A stretch of DNA of 31,478 nucleotides. It comes from Lachnospiraceae bacterium. GTDB taxonomy: Bacteria; Bacillota; Clostridia; Lachnospirales; Lachnospiraceae. The number at the start of each line of letters is the position of its first letter. Within the stretch, counting starts at the first letter, position 1. Below the pieces are notes generated by a model, which was not told the DNA's origin, searched no databases, and saw nothing but the letters and a program-made list of their open reading frames with translations. The stretch spans positions 1 through 31,478 of the forward strand of contig CAADSM010000058.1 of NCBI GenBank assembly GCA_900751785.1. The letters are read 5' to 3'. A program made the position numbers and the translations under genes. Shown piece after piece: positions 1,230 through 14,118 of this stretch.

Positions 1230-1247
1230 TTGTCAATTAATTGACAA
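1230..1247. promoter_or_regulatory. Rex-like redox operator
   Basis: TTGTCAATTAATTGACAA is a perfect 18-bp palindrome. It fits the Rex box layout TTGTnAA-N4-TTnACAA known in Firmicutes, where Rex senses the NADH/NAD+ ratio and represses lactate dehydrogenase and other NADH-oxidising genes. The first six bases are also the -35 box of the promoter described next, so a bound dimer would block RNA polymerase. The downstream unit begins with an NADH-linked 2-hydroxyacid dehydrogenase, which fits Rex. No rex gene is in the window, so the assignment rests on motif and context. Confidence 0.68.
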
Positions 1248-1258
1248 TGTGATATTAT
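1230..1258 (+). promoter_or_regulatory. Sigma-A promoter of the malate-to-succinate operon
   Basis: The -35 box TTGTCA (1230-1235), a 17-bp spacer and an extended -10 TG-A-TATTAT (1250-1258) make a good housekeeping promoter. Transcription would start near 1265, giving a leader of about 200 nt. The -35 lies wholly inside the Rex-like palindrome. Confidence 0.72.
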
Positions 1259-1287
1259 AAAAAAAGCGAAATCAGATTAATGCTTGT

Positions 1288-1336
1288 GAGCAGCCCCGGG
1301 AACCGGTGGAGGATCAGCGGGCGCTCCTTGTTTTTT
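1288..1336 (+). terminator. Intrinsic terminator inside the operon leader (possible attenuator)
   Basis: GAGC (1288-1291) pairs with GCTC (1323-1326) and GCCC (1293-1296) pairs with GGGC (1319-1322), with a single bulged A. The loop can form a further CCGG-GAA-CCGG hairpin. A TTGTTTTTT tract follows at once. It sits about 25 nt past the predicted transcription start and about 125 nt before the first gene. It could attenuate the operon or end a short leader RNA. I found no convincing ligand-binding fold. Confidence 0.55.
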
Positions 1337-1462
1337 ACGGAGGGAAAAGCAGTGCAGTTCTTTTTTAGATGATCAGAGTTCTATTAAAAAGACAGTTGCA
1401 GTTTAATCTTGATTTCTTTTTTTATTTCCAGAAAATAAAATGAAAGGTAAGAGGTGAAAAAA

Positions 1463-2410
1463 ATGAGCAGCAAAATCACTATCATCGGCGCCGGAAGTGT
1501 CGGAGCAACAATCGCGTACAAGCTTTCTTATGAAGATATCGCATCAGAGATCGTTATGATCGATATCAACAAAGACAAGGTTGAGGGAGAGGTAATGGAC
1601 ATCAAGCAGGGAACCTGCTTCAGAAGCCCGATCTCCATCATTGCAGGAGATTATGAGGACGCCAAGGATTCCGACATCGTCATCATTACATCAGGTATCG
1701 CACGTAAGCCGGGGCAGACAAGGATTGAACTTGCACAGACCAATGTCAACATCATCAAATCTATCACACCGGAGATCGTAAAAGCAGCTCCGAACGCGAA
1801 GTATATTATCGTGAGCAACCCGGTTGACGTTCTCACATATGTATTTACAAAGATTTCAGGACTTCCGGAGAGTCAGATCATTGGTTCCGGTACGCTTCTT
1901 GACACAGCACGTCTCCGTTATGGCTTGTCAGAGCATTTCAAGGTTGCGCAGAAGAATATTCATGCATATGTATTCGGAGAGCATGGCGATTCCTCTTTCG
2001 TTCCGTGGTCAGGGGCAGCTATCTCTACTGTAAATATTGACGACTATTATGAGTCTATGAAAGCGCACGGCGCAGAGCTTGAGGAGCTGGATAAGGACGC
2101 GATGGAAGAGTACGTCCACAAATCAGGCGGACAGGTCATCGCTAAGAAGGGCGCTACATTCTATGCGGTATCCATCTCTGTCTGTGAGCTCTGCAATCTT
2201 GTACTGGCTGCTTCAGATTCGATCGCTACAGTTTCAACGATGATGCACGGCGAGTACGGACTCGAGGATGTATGTCTGAGCGTTCTCTGCCTCGTAGGAC
2301 CGAACGGAGTTCAGGGCAAGATCCCGCTGCATCTGACAGACGACGAGATCGCAAAACTTCAGTCCAGCGCAAACAAACTGAAAGACGTTATCGCTCAGCT
2401 GGATATCTAA
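1463..2410 (+). CDS. NAD-dependent malate/lactate dehydrogenase, MDH-type specificity residue
   Basis: A 315-residue member of the LDH/MDH superfamily, which interconverts a 2-keto acid and a 2-hydroxy acid with NAD(H). Counting from ATG 1463: Rossmann motif GAGSVG (9-14), NAD-selecting Asp34, catalytic His174 in GEHGDSS, Asp147 and Arg150 in LLDTARLR, and Arg87. The substrate-specificity position, Gln in lactate dehydrogenases and Arg in malate dehydrogenases, is Arg81 (ARKPGQTR). The second specificity position (Thr246 of LDH) aligns with Cys. Both favour malate/oxaloacetate, and so does a fumarase plus fumarate reductase downstream. ATG 1463 has an AGAGG site 8 nt upstream; a GTG at 1454 is the alternative start. 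Databases may well call such proteins L-lactate dehydrogenase, so activity needs assay. Confidence 0.85.
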   Translation: MSSKITIIGAGSVGATIAYKLSYEDIASEIVMIDINKDKVEGEVMDIKQGTCFRSPISIIAGDYEDAKDSDIVIITSGIARKPGQTRIELAQTNVNIIKSITPEIVKAAPNAKYIIVSNPVDVLTYVFTKISGLPESQIIGSGTLLDTARLRYGLSEHFKVAQKNIHAYVFGEHGDSSFVPWSGAAISTVNIDDYYESMKAHGAELEELDKDAMEEYVHKSGGQVIAKKGATFYAVSISVCELCNLVLAASDSIATVSTMMHGEYGLEDVCLSVLCLVGPNGVQGKIPLHLTDDEIAKLQSSANKLKDVIAQLDI

Positions 2411-2418
2411 TTTGAAAT

Positions 2419-2472
2419 CCCTGGCATATCCTGCCAGGGTACAATAAAGCAACAGGGCGGACCTGTTCCGCC
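2419..2472 (+). promoter_or_regulatory. Two tandem hairpins between mdh and hdrB
   Basis: CCCTGGCA (2419-2426) and TGCCAGGG (2432-2439) form a perfect 8-bp hairpin with a 5-nt loop. A second element has two mutually exclusive foldings: AACAGG/CCTGTT (2451-2456 with 2462-2467) or GGCGG/CCGCC (2456-2460 with 2468-2472). No T run follows, so this is not a classic terminator. A transcript-stabilising or processing element separating the dehydrogenase from the electron-transfer genes is more likely. Confidence 0.45.
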
Positions 2473-12460: not shown

Positions 12461-12496
12461 TCTGAAGCAGGATTTAAACTATATCAGGAATTTTCG

Positions 12497-12557
12497 GCGG
12501 ACTGCAGAGCATTTGGCGATGCGGTCCGCAGAAAACATTCCGCATCGATCTGCGGAA
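12497..12557 (+). promoter_or_regulatory. Competing hairpins in the transporter-fumarase gap
   Basis: Several exact pairings overlap: GCGGAC (12497-12502) with GTCCGC (12524-12529), CGATGCGG (12517-12524) with CCGCATCG (12540-12547), TCCGCAG (12525-12531) with CTGCGGA (12550-12556), and TTCCGCA (12538-12544) with TGCGGAA (12551-12557). Not all can form together, so the RNA could switch. There is no T run and no good promoter, so the fumarase genes are probably still expressed from upstream. A regulatory or RNA-processing role is inferred. Confidence 0.45.
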
Positions 12558-12598
12558 ATATAATCCAAACAAATTAAAAATGGAAGGAGTTGGCTTTC

Positions 12599-13441
12599 AT
12601 GCGTGAAATTAATGTAAGCACACTTACAGACGTGATCGAGAGACTCTGTATCGAGGCAAATCAGCATCTCCCGGAAGACGTAAAATGTGCGATCCGCGAC
12701 TGCCGTGCATGTGAGGACGGAGAGATCGCGAAGGGCGTTCTGGACAACATCATTGAAAATTATGAGATCGCGGACAATGAGAACGTGCCGATCTGCCAGG
12801 ATACCGGTATGGCATGTGTATTCCTTGAGATCGGACAGGATGTACATCTTGTCGGAGGAGATCTTGCGGAGGCAGTGGACGAGGGGGTCCGCCGCGGATA
12901 TACAAACGGATATCTGCGTAAATCTGTCGTAAAGGATCCGGTGCGCCGCGGAAATACGGGAGACAATACTCCGGCAATGCTCTATACGGAGATTGTGCCG
13001 GGCGAGAACATCAAGGTTACAGTAGGACCGAAAGGATTCGGCAGCGAGAATATGAGCCAGATCCGTATGTTCAAGCCGTCAGCAGGACTTCAGGGCATTA
13101 AGGATTTCATCCTCGAGGCAGTGGAGACAGCAGGCCCGAATCCGTGCCCGCCTATGGTAGTGGGCGTGGGTATCGGCGGAACATTTGACAAGTGTGCTCT
13201 TCTTGCAAAGAAAGCGCTCATGAGACCGCTTGATTCTTCCAACCCGGATCCGTTCTATGCAGATCTGGAGAAGGAGATGCTGGAGAAGGTCAACGAGCTG
13301 GGAATCGGACCGCAGGGATTCGGCGGAAAGACGACAGCTATCGGACTGAACATCGAGACAATGCCGACACATATCGCAGGTATGCCATGTGCAGTCAATA
13401 TCAACTGCCATGTGACACGCCACAAATCGGAGGTGATATAA
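12599..13441 (+). CDS. Fumarate hydratase class I, alpha subunit
   Basis: A 280-residue alpha subunit of the two-part iron-sulfur fumarase / L(+)-tartrate dehydratase family. It interconverts malate and fumarate (or dehydrates tartrate) using an oxygen-labile [4Fe-4S] cluster. Family motifs seen: CQDTGMACVFLEIG, GNTGDNTPAMLYTEIVPG, GPKGFGSENMS and PNPCPPMVVGVGIGGTFDKCALLAKKAL, the last two holding likely cluster cysteines. ATG 12599 is chosen because GGAG lies 9 nt upstream; a TTG at 12590 would add three residues but abuts the site. Fumarase is preferred over tartrate dehydratase because malate dehydrogenase and fumarate reductase share the operon. Confidence 0.92.
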   Translation: MREINVSTLTDVIERLCIEANQHLPEDVKCAIRDCRACEDGEIAKGVLDNIIENYEIADNENVPICQDTGMACVFLEIGQDVHLVGGDLAEAVDEGVRRGYTNGYLRKSVVKDPVRRGNTGDNTPAMLYTEIVPGENIKVTVGPKGFGSENMSQIRMFKPSAGLQGIKDFILEAVETAGPNPCPPMVVGVGIGGTFDKCALLAKKALMRPLDSSNPDPFYADLEKEMLEKVNELGIGPQGFGGKTTAIGLNIETMPTHIAGMPCAVNINCHVTRHKSEVI

Positions 13442-13999
13442 ATGGCAAGAAAGATTACATTACCACTCACAGAGGAACTTGCTAAGACTCTTCACGCAGG
13501 AGATCAGCTTCTCCTGACAGGAACGATCTACACATCCCGTGACGCCGGACACAAGAGAATGTGCGAAGCGCTGGCAAAAGGCGAGGAAATTCCTTTTGAC
13601 CCGAAGGATGCAACGATCTACTATGTGGGACCGACACCGGCAAAACCGGGTCATGTGATCGGAAGCGCAGGTCCGACGACGAGCGGACGTATGGACGCTT
13701 ATGCACCGACGATGATGTCTGTCGGCGCGAGAGGAATGATCGGAAAAGGCGCGCGTCTTCCGGAAGTTGTGGACGCCATGAAGAAGTACAGCGGCGTTTA
13801 CTTCGGCGCGATCGGCGGTGCGGGAGCTCTTCTTGCGAAATGTATCAAGAAAGCGGAGCTGATCGCATACGAAGATCTCGGAGCAGAGGCGCTGAGAAAG
13901 CTCTATGTAGAGGATATGCCGGTGGTCGTTATCATCGACAGCGAAGGAAATAACCTGTACGAAGAAGGAAGAAAAGCTTATCTGGAGTCCAGGAAATAA
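13442..13999 (+). CDS. Fumarate hydratase class I, beta subunit
   Basis: A 185-residue beta subunit, starting on the base after the alpha stop codon with AGGTGAT upstream, so the two are surely co-translated. Motifs: GTIYTSRDAGHKRM near residue 26, YYVGPTPAKPGHVIGSAGPTTSGRMD at 60-85 (the substrate-binding loop), and GVYFGAIGGAGALLAKCIKKAE near 118. Together with the alpha subunit it completes the malate-to-fumarate step that feeds the fumarate reductase upstream. It is followed by the operon terminator. Confidence 0.93.
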   Translation: MARKITLPLTEELAKTLHAGDQLLLTGTIYTSRDAGHKRMCEALAKGEEIPFDPKDATIYYVGPTPAKPGHVIGSAGPTTSGRMDAYAPTMMSVGARGMIGKGARLPEVVDAMKKYSGVYFGAIGGAGALLAKCIKKAELIAYEDLGAEALRKLYVEDMPVVVIIDSEGNNLYEEGRKAYLESRK

Positions 14000-14067
14000 T
14001 TTTTCAAAACATATTCGGAGACGGCGCACTGAGTGCTCCGGTTCCGAAAGTTGAGAGGATCTAACTG

Positions 14068-14118
14068 CCTGGGAAACTGGTTTGAAGATTAACACCAGTT
14101 TCCCGGGCTTTTATTTTT
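14068..14118 (+). terminator. Strong intrinsic terminator ending the malate-to-succinate operon
   Basis: CCTGGGAAACTGGT (14068-14081) pairs with ACCAGTTTCCCGGG (14094-14107) through 14 bp including one G-T pair, with a 12-nt loop, followed by CTTTTATTTTTG. This is the first clear terminator after the leader, so the twelve genes from the dehydrogenase to fumarase beta probably share one transcript. Confidence 0.9.

Follow-up and report, generated by a model that had tools for sequence, protein, structure and literature searches.

A 31,478-nt stretch of forward-strand DNA from a Lachnospiraceae bacterium (assembly GCA_900751785.1, contig CAADSM010000058.1), referred to below as the window, contains an operon in which genes for a complete Flx-Hdr electron-transfer complex are followed immediately by genes for two fumarate-reductase-like proteins, FrdB and FrdA. 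The reading favored here, at a probability of roughly 0.57, is that the Flx-Hdr-FrdBA proteins couple NADH-driven fumarate reduction to ferredoxin reduction by electron bifurcation, and that the operon is probably controlled by the regulator Rex. The question addressed is how gut Clostridia that make succinate could conserve energy from fumarate in the absence of a quinone-linked enzyme.

In this scheme, the operon would encode the reductive branch from oxaloacetate through malate and fumarate to succinate, together with a soluble complex. FlxA would take hydride from NADH and pass electrons through FlxB and FlxC to FlxD, and from there to the flavin adenine dinucleotide (FAD) of HdrA. HdrA would then bifurcate, sending one electron to ferredoxin and the other through HdrC and HdrB to FrdB, FrdA, and fumarate. 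The net reaction would be 2 NADH + fumarate + oxidized ferredoxin -> 2 NAD+ + succinate + reduced ferredoxin, and the reduced ferredoxin would be re-oxidized by Rnf for ATP. Complex formation, the direction of the reaction, direct HdrB-to-FrdB transfer, and bifurcation itself are steps that we infer from sequence.

All seven subunit types of FlxABCD-HdrABC are present together in the operon (Table 1). In known complexes of this kind the terminal acceptor is a DsrC-type disulfide, whereas in the window it would be FrdBA. The complex was reportedly described by Ramos et al. in 2015 as an NADH dehydrogenase/heterodisulfide reductase. HdrA aligns over residues 3–660 with the solved bifurcating HdrA of a methanogen (5odc_A, 9.4e-206), with cluster cysteines that match by eye. 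HdrB matches 7bkb_B (3.3e-33) and, also by eye, keeps the cysteines of both CCG stretches; FlxD matches 5odc_D (2.5e-49), and FlxA matches 9nez_C, the gamma (NAD(P)H) subunit of a sulfhydrogenase (1.5e-57). Several matches to NCBIfam models fall under the curated cut-offs of what are methanogen models, namely HdrA to NF040770 (801 bits, cut-off 1100), HdrB to TIGR03288 (138 bits, cut-off 345), and HdrC to TIGR03290 (66 bits, cut-off 160). FlxB likewise scores below cut-off against ShyB (189 bits), and both it and FlxC were named by their place in the cluster plus weaker family matches. From hdrB to frdA, adjoining genes overlap or lie at most 17 bp apart in window coordinates. The genes named in an initial annotation of this DNA, including the full HdrABC and FlxABCD sets, are all intact and on the plus strand in the order it gave, and family matches back the names.

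The assignment of FrdA was examined at the level of individual residues in 115 homologues (78 close and 37 distant). The catalytic His, Glu, Arg, His, and Arg are invariant in all 115, while the catalytic Thr is kept in 114 and replaced by Ser in one. We take these positions to be His232, Thr244, Glu245, Arg287, His355, and Arg390 of E. coli FrdA. At the position of the His that binds FAD covalently, all 115 have Asn, and soluble fumarate reductases also lack this His. L-aspartate oxidase (NadB), whose active-site Glu presumably sits in a REGGHS-type motif, was considered as an identity for FrdA and ruled out, as the Glu is absent from 115/115 homologues (Gly in 112, Ala in 3). Two other hits from Blautia genomes (L087 and L088) do carry this Glu, within EGAHS, and have neighbors that read as nadA and nadC. 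By this residue test FrdA is a fumarate reductase, as the initial annotation had proposed. That the substrate is an enoate other than fumarate is highly improbable: the flavoprotein superfamily does include urocanate reductase and aspartate oxidase, but FrdA retains the residues for dicarboxylate binding and the acid residues, it lacks the NadB Glu, and fumarase is encoded in the same operon.

Solved relatives of FrdA are chiefly flavoproteins of succinate dehydrogenase and fumarate reductase; aspartate oxidase and urocanate reductase rank lower. An N-terminal extension of ~88 residues is found in FrdA and in all 37 distant members displayed. The AlphaFold model of FrdA has a mean predicted local distance difference test score (pLDDT) of 64.2, with much of the catalytic region <50; fumarate-reductase/succinate-dehydrogenase flavoproteins rank first in its Foldseek search, but with a TM score of ~0.4 and a root-mean-square deviation of ~13 Å, so that the model adds nothing beyond the sequence family. 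The FrdB model (mean pLDDT 49.7) is unusable. In FrdB, four [2Fe-2S]-type cysteines and two CxxCxxCxxxC motifs (eight ferredoxin-type cysteines) are invariant in 117/117 homologues, and Cys37, a fifth cysteine near the first center, is kept in 116. The FrdB family is large, with 4,894 protein clusters matching at E<=0.001; the listing covers the top 120 of these, and roles may differ among distant members. Compared with the complex II-type FrdABCD, the window's proteins share the FrdA family and active site, but the operon has no membrane anchor gene, a domain search of FrdA gave no match to the C-terminal flavoprotein domain (Succ_DH_flav_C), the FAD-linking His is Asn, and both ferredoxin motifs have four cysteines.

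The thiol:fumarate reductase of methanogens, TfrAB, is another relevant relative. The TfrA model is the best NCBIfam match of FrdA, yet at 325 bits it is well under its cut-off of 718. TfrB has a CCG domain, whereas no CCG domain (PF02754) match was obtained for FrdB in the domain search. Against the 488-position TfrB model, FrdB scores 33.7 bits over model positions 19–171, HdrC 26.9 bits over 117–219, and HdrB 40.9 bits over 414–487; all of these matches are weak and far under the cut-off of 385. Since they fall on separate stretches of the model, they fit the view that FrdB-like and HdrB-like parts are fused in methanogen TfrB, and this view in turn supports a contact between HdrB and FrdB. 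A related possibility is that the product of Flx-Hdr is a dithiol, formed from a low-molecular or protein disulfide, which would pass its electrons on to FrdBA in the manner of thiol:fumarate reductase. The retained CCG cysteines of HdrB and the TfrA match would suit such a route. A diffusible thiol is less likely, however, because FrdBA has no evident thiol-oxidizing site, and no DsrC family turned up among the operon proteins in general family scans, in agreement with the absence of DsrC reported in the initial annotation. Altogether the thiol route appears quite unlikely.

The arrangement of the genes was compared among related loci. When genomes of named species were scanned with FrdB, 325 relatives were obtained, and the 80 best loci were retained; having been chosen by FrdB similarity (88–99% identity), these are close kin, and they represent fewer than 80 genomes, as L004/L008, L031/L033, and L046/L047 are pairs from one metagenome-assembled genome each. 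The order hdrBCA-flxDCBA-frdBA is complete, with all nine genes, in 65/80 loci. In the other 15, the genes that are present keep the order and the rest would fall past the contig end. This conservation is far above chance. Spacing is also tight, with a median flxA-frdB gap of 24 bp (73 pairs, range 16–752) and a median frdB-frdA gap of 12 bp (77 pairs, range 11–16). Among the fetched records, the nearest locus is that of Candidatus Mediterraneibacter intestinavium, with 93% DNA identity over 1456–14005. Of the 75 loci having both frdA and fumA, 33 have a transporter gene between the two; without it, fumA follows frdA within 400 bp in 40 and after a longer gap in two. The transporter is therefore an optional part of the operon.

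The operon is probably under redox control by Rex, a regulator that senses the NADH/NAD+ ratio and whose binding is predicted here from the upstream sequence. A Rex-like operator would fit an NADH-disposing operon because of this response. The first hexamer of a promoter-like site ahead of the operon lies within the perfect palindrome TTGTCAATTAATTGACAA (1230–1247). It differs from the clostridial Rex consensus TTGTTAANNNNTTAACAA by one change per half, with 12/14 specified bases matching (PMC5367854, PMC8457756, PMC9600882). After the site had been seen, the pattern was relaxed at two positions to TTGTNAANNNNTTNACAA, for which 1230–1247 is the sole match in the window against 0.02 expected. 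The 300 bp before the operon were then surveyed in 63 loci including the window; 18 of the 80 others were dropped, as their operon start was missing or too close to a contig end. Among these 63 loci, which are related and hence non-independent, a site scoring at least 11/12 occurs upstream in 47 and one scoring at least 10/12 in 60. By comparison, the respective counts are 0 and 27 in 478 control upstreams of the same loci, 0.6% and 7.6% in 1,260 dinucleotide shuffles, and 29 and 94 in 2,000 windows of 450 bp placed at random in the 80 loci, where overlap with the operator is possible in some cases. All five related genomes searched have a Rex-type DNA-binding domain (PF06971) scoring above cut-off. 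In the excerpts of the three Rex papers, no Rex site is described before a fumarate-reductase operon of this kind.

The operator also bears on the direction of the reaction. The complex could instead run backwards, with succinate oxidation powered by reduced ferredoxin, and in other lineages FrdBA does occur beside malic-enzyme-like, SucCD-like, and 2-oxoacid:ferredoxin-oxidoreductase-like genes (names read from translations). This reversal is very unlikely in the window, as its kin are fermentative Lachnospiraceae, the Rex-like operator implies induction by high NADH, and Blautia luti forms succinate from sugars (PMC12773636).

Energetically, bifurcation of this kind is feasible. With E0' values of +33 mV for fumarate and -320 mV for NADH (PMC5861303) and ferredoxin at -400 to -500 mV (PMC12773636), transfer from NADH to fumarate was computed to release ~-68 kJ/mol, against a cost of 15 to 35 kJ/mol for ferredoxin reduction. 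Rnf is over cut-off in 5/5 related genomes and would provide an energy-conserving outlet for reduced ferredoxin. The initial annotation had supposed that no membrane-bound reductase is involved, and the anchor families PF01127 and PF02313, the only two searched, are indeed over cut-off in 0/5 of these genomes. If the complex bifurcates, one pair of reduced-ferredoxin electrons would be obtained per fumarate, or ~0.56 ATP per succinate, under the ratios assumed for B. luti (at Rnf, 2 H+ for each electron pair; 3.6 H+/ATP; PMC12773636).

Such a coupling has been put forward before. For Pseudoclostridium thermosuccinogenes, a "succinate operon" has been described that comprises genes for fumarase and a putative succinate transporter, seven Flx-Hdr genes, and two for fumarate reductase, and fumarate reduction coupled to ferredoxin was proposed (Koendjbiharie et al. 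2020, PMC7282089, citing the 2019 preprint 10.20944/preprints201912.0288). Judged by this published description, the gene set and the proposed coupling are the same as in the window, although the Lachnospiraceae operon has mdh first and fumarase last. When CO2 was limiting, the matching operon of P. thermosuccinogenes was up ~4-fold, although the change did not reach significance for every subunit. In an earlier study, succinate had almost disappeared when H2 was added, an effect that the authors regard as consistent with a ferredoxin-reducing enzyme (PMC7282089). In tubeworm symbionts, a flxABCD-hdrABC complex with tfrAB and korABCD was suggested (PMC6315080). There, too, fumarate reductase genes lie amid flx-hdr genes and direct electron delivery was suggested by the authors (PMC6315080, PMC11636981), but the context is a reductive tricarboxylic acid (TCA) cycle with 2-oxoglutarate:ferredoxin oxidoreductase, and the enzyme is called a thiol:fumarate reductase.

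The window operon is thus a further case of a published proposal, plausible but not itself new. The initial annotation's interpretation holds with respect to the FrdA catalytic set, the tight operon with a complete Flx-Hdr, the missing PF01127/PF02313 anchors, and Rnf, but not with respect to novelty (PMC7282089, PMC6315080). Its remark that no characterized enzyme has this composition is accurate insofar as no biochemical proof of Flx-Hdr-FrdBA bifurcation was found among open-licence PMC papers, while the gene set and the idea were already in print in those same two papers. Excerpts of PMC9044749, PMC13014828, PMC6776011, and PMC11736642 contained nothing on such a complex. What is added here comprises the Rex-like operator, the residue tests, a modular distribution with Hdr-less exceptions, and a likely correction for the mdh gene.

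Distribution was assessed in a sample of 398 genomes drawn from the phylum. FrdB (E<=1e-10) occurs in 39, always as a single copy, and HdrA (E<=1e-150) in 128. HdrA is present in 35 of the 39 FrdB genomes versus 93 of the 359 others (Fisher p 4e-15, relatedness not corrected). FrdB surroundings, up to ~10 kb each way with some stopped by contig ends, were covered in 38 of the 39, the 39th being Blautia parvula, the genome of locus L027. FrdA adjoins FrdB in 37 of these 38 distant loci, and in the remaining one (L132) the stretch ends before frdA. A complete Flx-Hdr is adjacent in five, and several HdrA-like hits plus FlxD in 11. FrdB is patchy within Blautia genera, being found in 5/20 genomes of the genus of Blautia parvula (G001) and 15/60 of that of Blautia glucerasea (G004). 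In the latter species, one locus (L086) holds another FrdB-FrdA pair, distinct from the first, beside a membrane protein of 179 aa that scores 22.2 bits against PF01127 (cut-off 25.8).

Several points weigh against the bifurcating reading. The Fisher test is uncorrected for relatedness, as said. No hdr or flx gene is seen in the stretch covered in 17 of the 38 distant loci, and a further five have HdrBC only. HdrA was sought in 21 of these genomes (all 17 of the former and four of the latter, with G281 left out) and was found at E<=1e-60 in 17, including 13 of those without hdr/flx beside FrdB; it sits in a full hdrBCA-flxDCBA set in 13 and in an incomplete or contig-cut one in four (G190, G369, G135, and G080). 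The remaining four genomes (G385, G076, G301, and G072) encode FrdBA, yet neither HdrA (E<=1e-60) nor HdrB (E<=1e-5) was detected in them; the HdrB search had no positive control, and the genomes may be incomplete. On an FrdA tree of 50 rows (the window, 37 distant loci, and 12 of the 80 close ones), FrdA of these four branches beside the window's clade, on the same side of a 100/99 branch. By the tree, then, close kin of the window's FrdBA occur without Hdr, which argues against strict coupling. From the published systems, the effect of Na2S on succinate in P. thermosuccinogenes was opposite and confusing (PMC7282089), and the Hdr-Flx/reductive TCA cluster of Endoriftia was co-expressed except for tfrAB (PMC11636981). 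Finally, a single-potential chain from NADH to fumarate would look identical in sequence.

This last point concerns the possibility that Flx-Hdr-FrdBA is a plain soluble NADH:fumarate reductase working at one potential, with ferredoxin uninvolved. In the published energy balance of Blautia luti, fumarate reduction is assigned to an NADH-dependent enzyme, and the main text contains none of the words Hdr, Flx, or heterodisulfide (PMC12773636). The plain reductase is nevertheless unlikely, given a full-length HdrA that keeps its FAD region and C-terminal ferredoxin clusters, which a simple wire would not need.

The genomes without Hdr bear instead on the possibility that FrdBA stands alone with another donor (ferredoxin, flavodoxin, or another protein) while Flx-Hdr serves a separate disulfide. 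They and the 17 loci without hdr/flx neighbors speak for it, but the fixed gene order in 65/80 loci, the 35/39 co-occurrence, and the tree make it improbable. On that tree, the Flx-linked label needs three changes, gains or losses, forced by well-supported branches, and yields three linked groups, namely the window's clade, L121/L122/L128/L129, and L150, the sole member of its group, on a long branch. L146, another long branch, falls among the FrdA of Hdr-less genomes. If the tree is followed, the link between FrdBA and Flx-Hdr arose or was lost more than once. The initial annotation had suggested a genome search for co-occurrence of HdrABC-FlxABCD with FrdAB; the result favors the link in 35 of 39 FrdB genomes and fails to do so in the four without HdrA and HdrB.

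Bifurcation with NADH, as favored for the window, may be one version of a broader arrangement. Tentatively, and at somewhat less than even odds, FrdBA could be a general high-potential acceptor cassette that replaces the heterodisulfide on HdrBC and is combined with varied Hdr electron-entry modules across Bacillota. In gut Lachnospiraceae it would serve Rex-controlled NADH/ferredoxin/fumarate bifurcation, with extra ferredoxin-driven ATP per succinate that is left out of the published Blautia balance.

Other neighborhoods of FrdBA were also seen. For example, FrdBA of L133, L135, L140, L144, and others has HdrCB, a single HdrA, and additional HdrA-like hits as neighbors. The additional hits of L133 are in a 1092-aa frame, and SucCD-like, 2-oxoacid-oxidoreductase-like, and malic-enzyme-like genes are nearby (names read from translations). 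Such loci suggest a reductive TCA context in which electrons enter by another route. In L125, L132, L139, L143, and L148, the order is HdrC-HdrB-FrdB-FrdA with no HdrA or Flx in the neighborhood, which resembles a split TfrAB. In L131, L134, and L138 (genomes G385, G076, and G301), FrdBA adjoins a 1144-aa protein that reads as pyruvate carboxylase. Many HdrA homologues in Bacillota (G085:C153, G257:C63, G038:C65, and others) contain one in-frame TGA, possibly for selenocysteine; the window HdrA has none.

The first gene of the operon had been called mdh-like. By NCBIfam scores it is closer to L-lactate dehydrogenase (TIGR01771, 344 bits, cut-off 303.55) than to malate dehydrogenase (NF004863, 283.8 bits, barely over a cut-off of 283). 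At what we take to be the malate-specificity switch of the lactate dehydrogenase fold, however, it has Arg where four of five aligned lactate dehydrogenase structures (4m1q, 1lld, 3pqd, and 2zqy) have Gln. Lactate dehydrogenase was rejected on this Arg, with the caveat that the fifth structure, 1y6j, deposited as a lactate dehydrogenase, also has Arg. Because of the Arg and of the fumarase and FrdBA genes beside it, the gene is likely a malate dehydrogenase, and the earlier name is preferred. Extracts of Blautia luti showed NADH-dependent reduction of oxaloacetate and viologen-dependent reduction of fumarate, and frdAB was strongly transcribed (PMC12773636), a comparison at the level of the pathway. 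The AspT/YidE-type transporter likely exports C4-dicarboxylates.

The operon likely is transcribed as a single unit. Its limits had been placed at 1230, which proves to be a promoter-like site, and at 14118, where a strong hairpin ends and a T-rich tract comes next (14060–14125 folds at -28.8 kcal/mol, z -5.8). A promoter scan of the region gave 16 such sites against 12.9 expected, so that the site at 1230 alone is little proof, and the terminator hairpin is absent from the sites of a consensus scan whose loop limit was eight. Strong hairpins occur in the gaps between mdh and hdrB (2405–2475, z -3.6) and between the transporter and fumA (12460–12590, z -5.0). These hairpins could be processing sites, and internal promoters in the same gaps are possible.

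Table 1. Features of the Flx-Hdr-FrdBA operon, in window coordinates.
Feature	Position	Strand	Basis
Rex-like operator (putative), perfect palindrome TTGTCAATTAATTGACAA	1230..1247	.	fits relaxed pattern TTGTNAANNNNTTNACAA; covers -35 hexamer
Promoter-like site TTGTCA-17-TATTAT, TG before second hexamer	1230..1258	+	10/12 bases match
Malate dehydrogenase (mdh; likely), LDH-type fold	1454..2410	+	Ldh_1_N/Ldh_1_C; TIGR01771, NF004863
HdrB, two CCG stretches	2495..3292	+	PF02754 x2; 7bkb_B
HdrC, 4Fe-4S	3289..3678	+	TIGR03290 match below cut-off
HdrA, FAD, homologue of bifurcating subunit	3685..5673	+	NF040770 below cut-off; 5odc_A
FlxD/MvhD	5664..6107	+	PF02662; 5odc_D
FlxC-like 4Fe-4S protein	6095..7069	+	place in cluster, weak FrhB-type match
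FlxB-like 4Fe-4S protein, AsrA/sulfhydrogenase-beta-like	7073..8116	+	PF17179; ShyB below cut-off
FlxA-like NAD(P)H/FAD subunit	8116..8970	+	PF00175, PF00970, PF10418; 9nez_C
FrdB-like, 224 aa, [2Fe-2S] + 2x[4Fe-4S] motifs	8988..9662	+	motif residues
FrdA-like flavoprotein, 533 aa	9675..11276	+	PF00890; active-site residues
AspT/YidE-type transporter	11291..12460	+	PF06826; TIGR01625 above cut-off
Fumarase alpha subunit (fumA)	12590..13441	+	NF004885, 417 bits, cut-off 276
Fumarase beta subunit (fumB)	13442..13999	+	NF005310, 295 bits, cut-off 238
Intrinsic terminator (predicted)	14066..14118	+	fold of 14060–14125

In the window as a whole, no Rfam match was obtained at gathering thresholds. 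Upstream of the operon lies queA (72–1097). Downstream, positions 17745–22337 encode an extracytoplasmic function (ECF) sigma factor, followed by a 257-aa protein without a family, an ATP-binding cassette (ABC) ATPase, a 405-aa protein without a family, and an ABC-2-like membrane protein. Further on, at 22559–28570, is a gene for a 2003-aa LacZ-type beta-galactosidase with laminin-G, NPCBM, and FIVAR domains (NF052611, 930 bits, cut-off 999).

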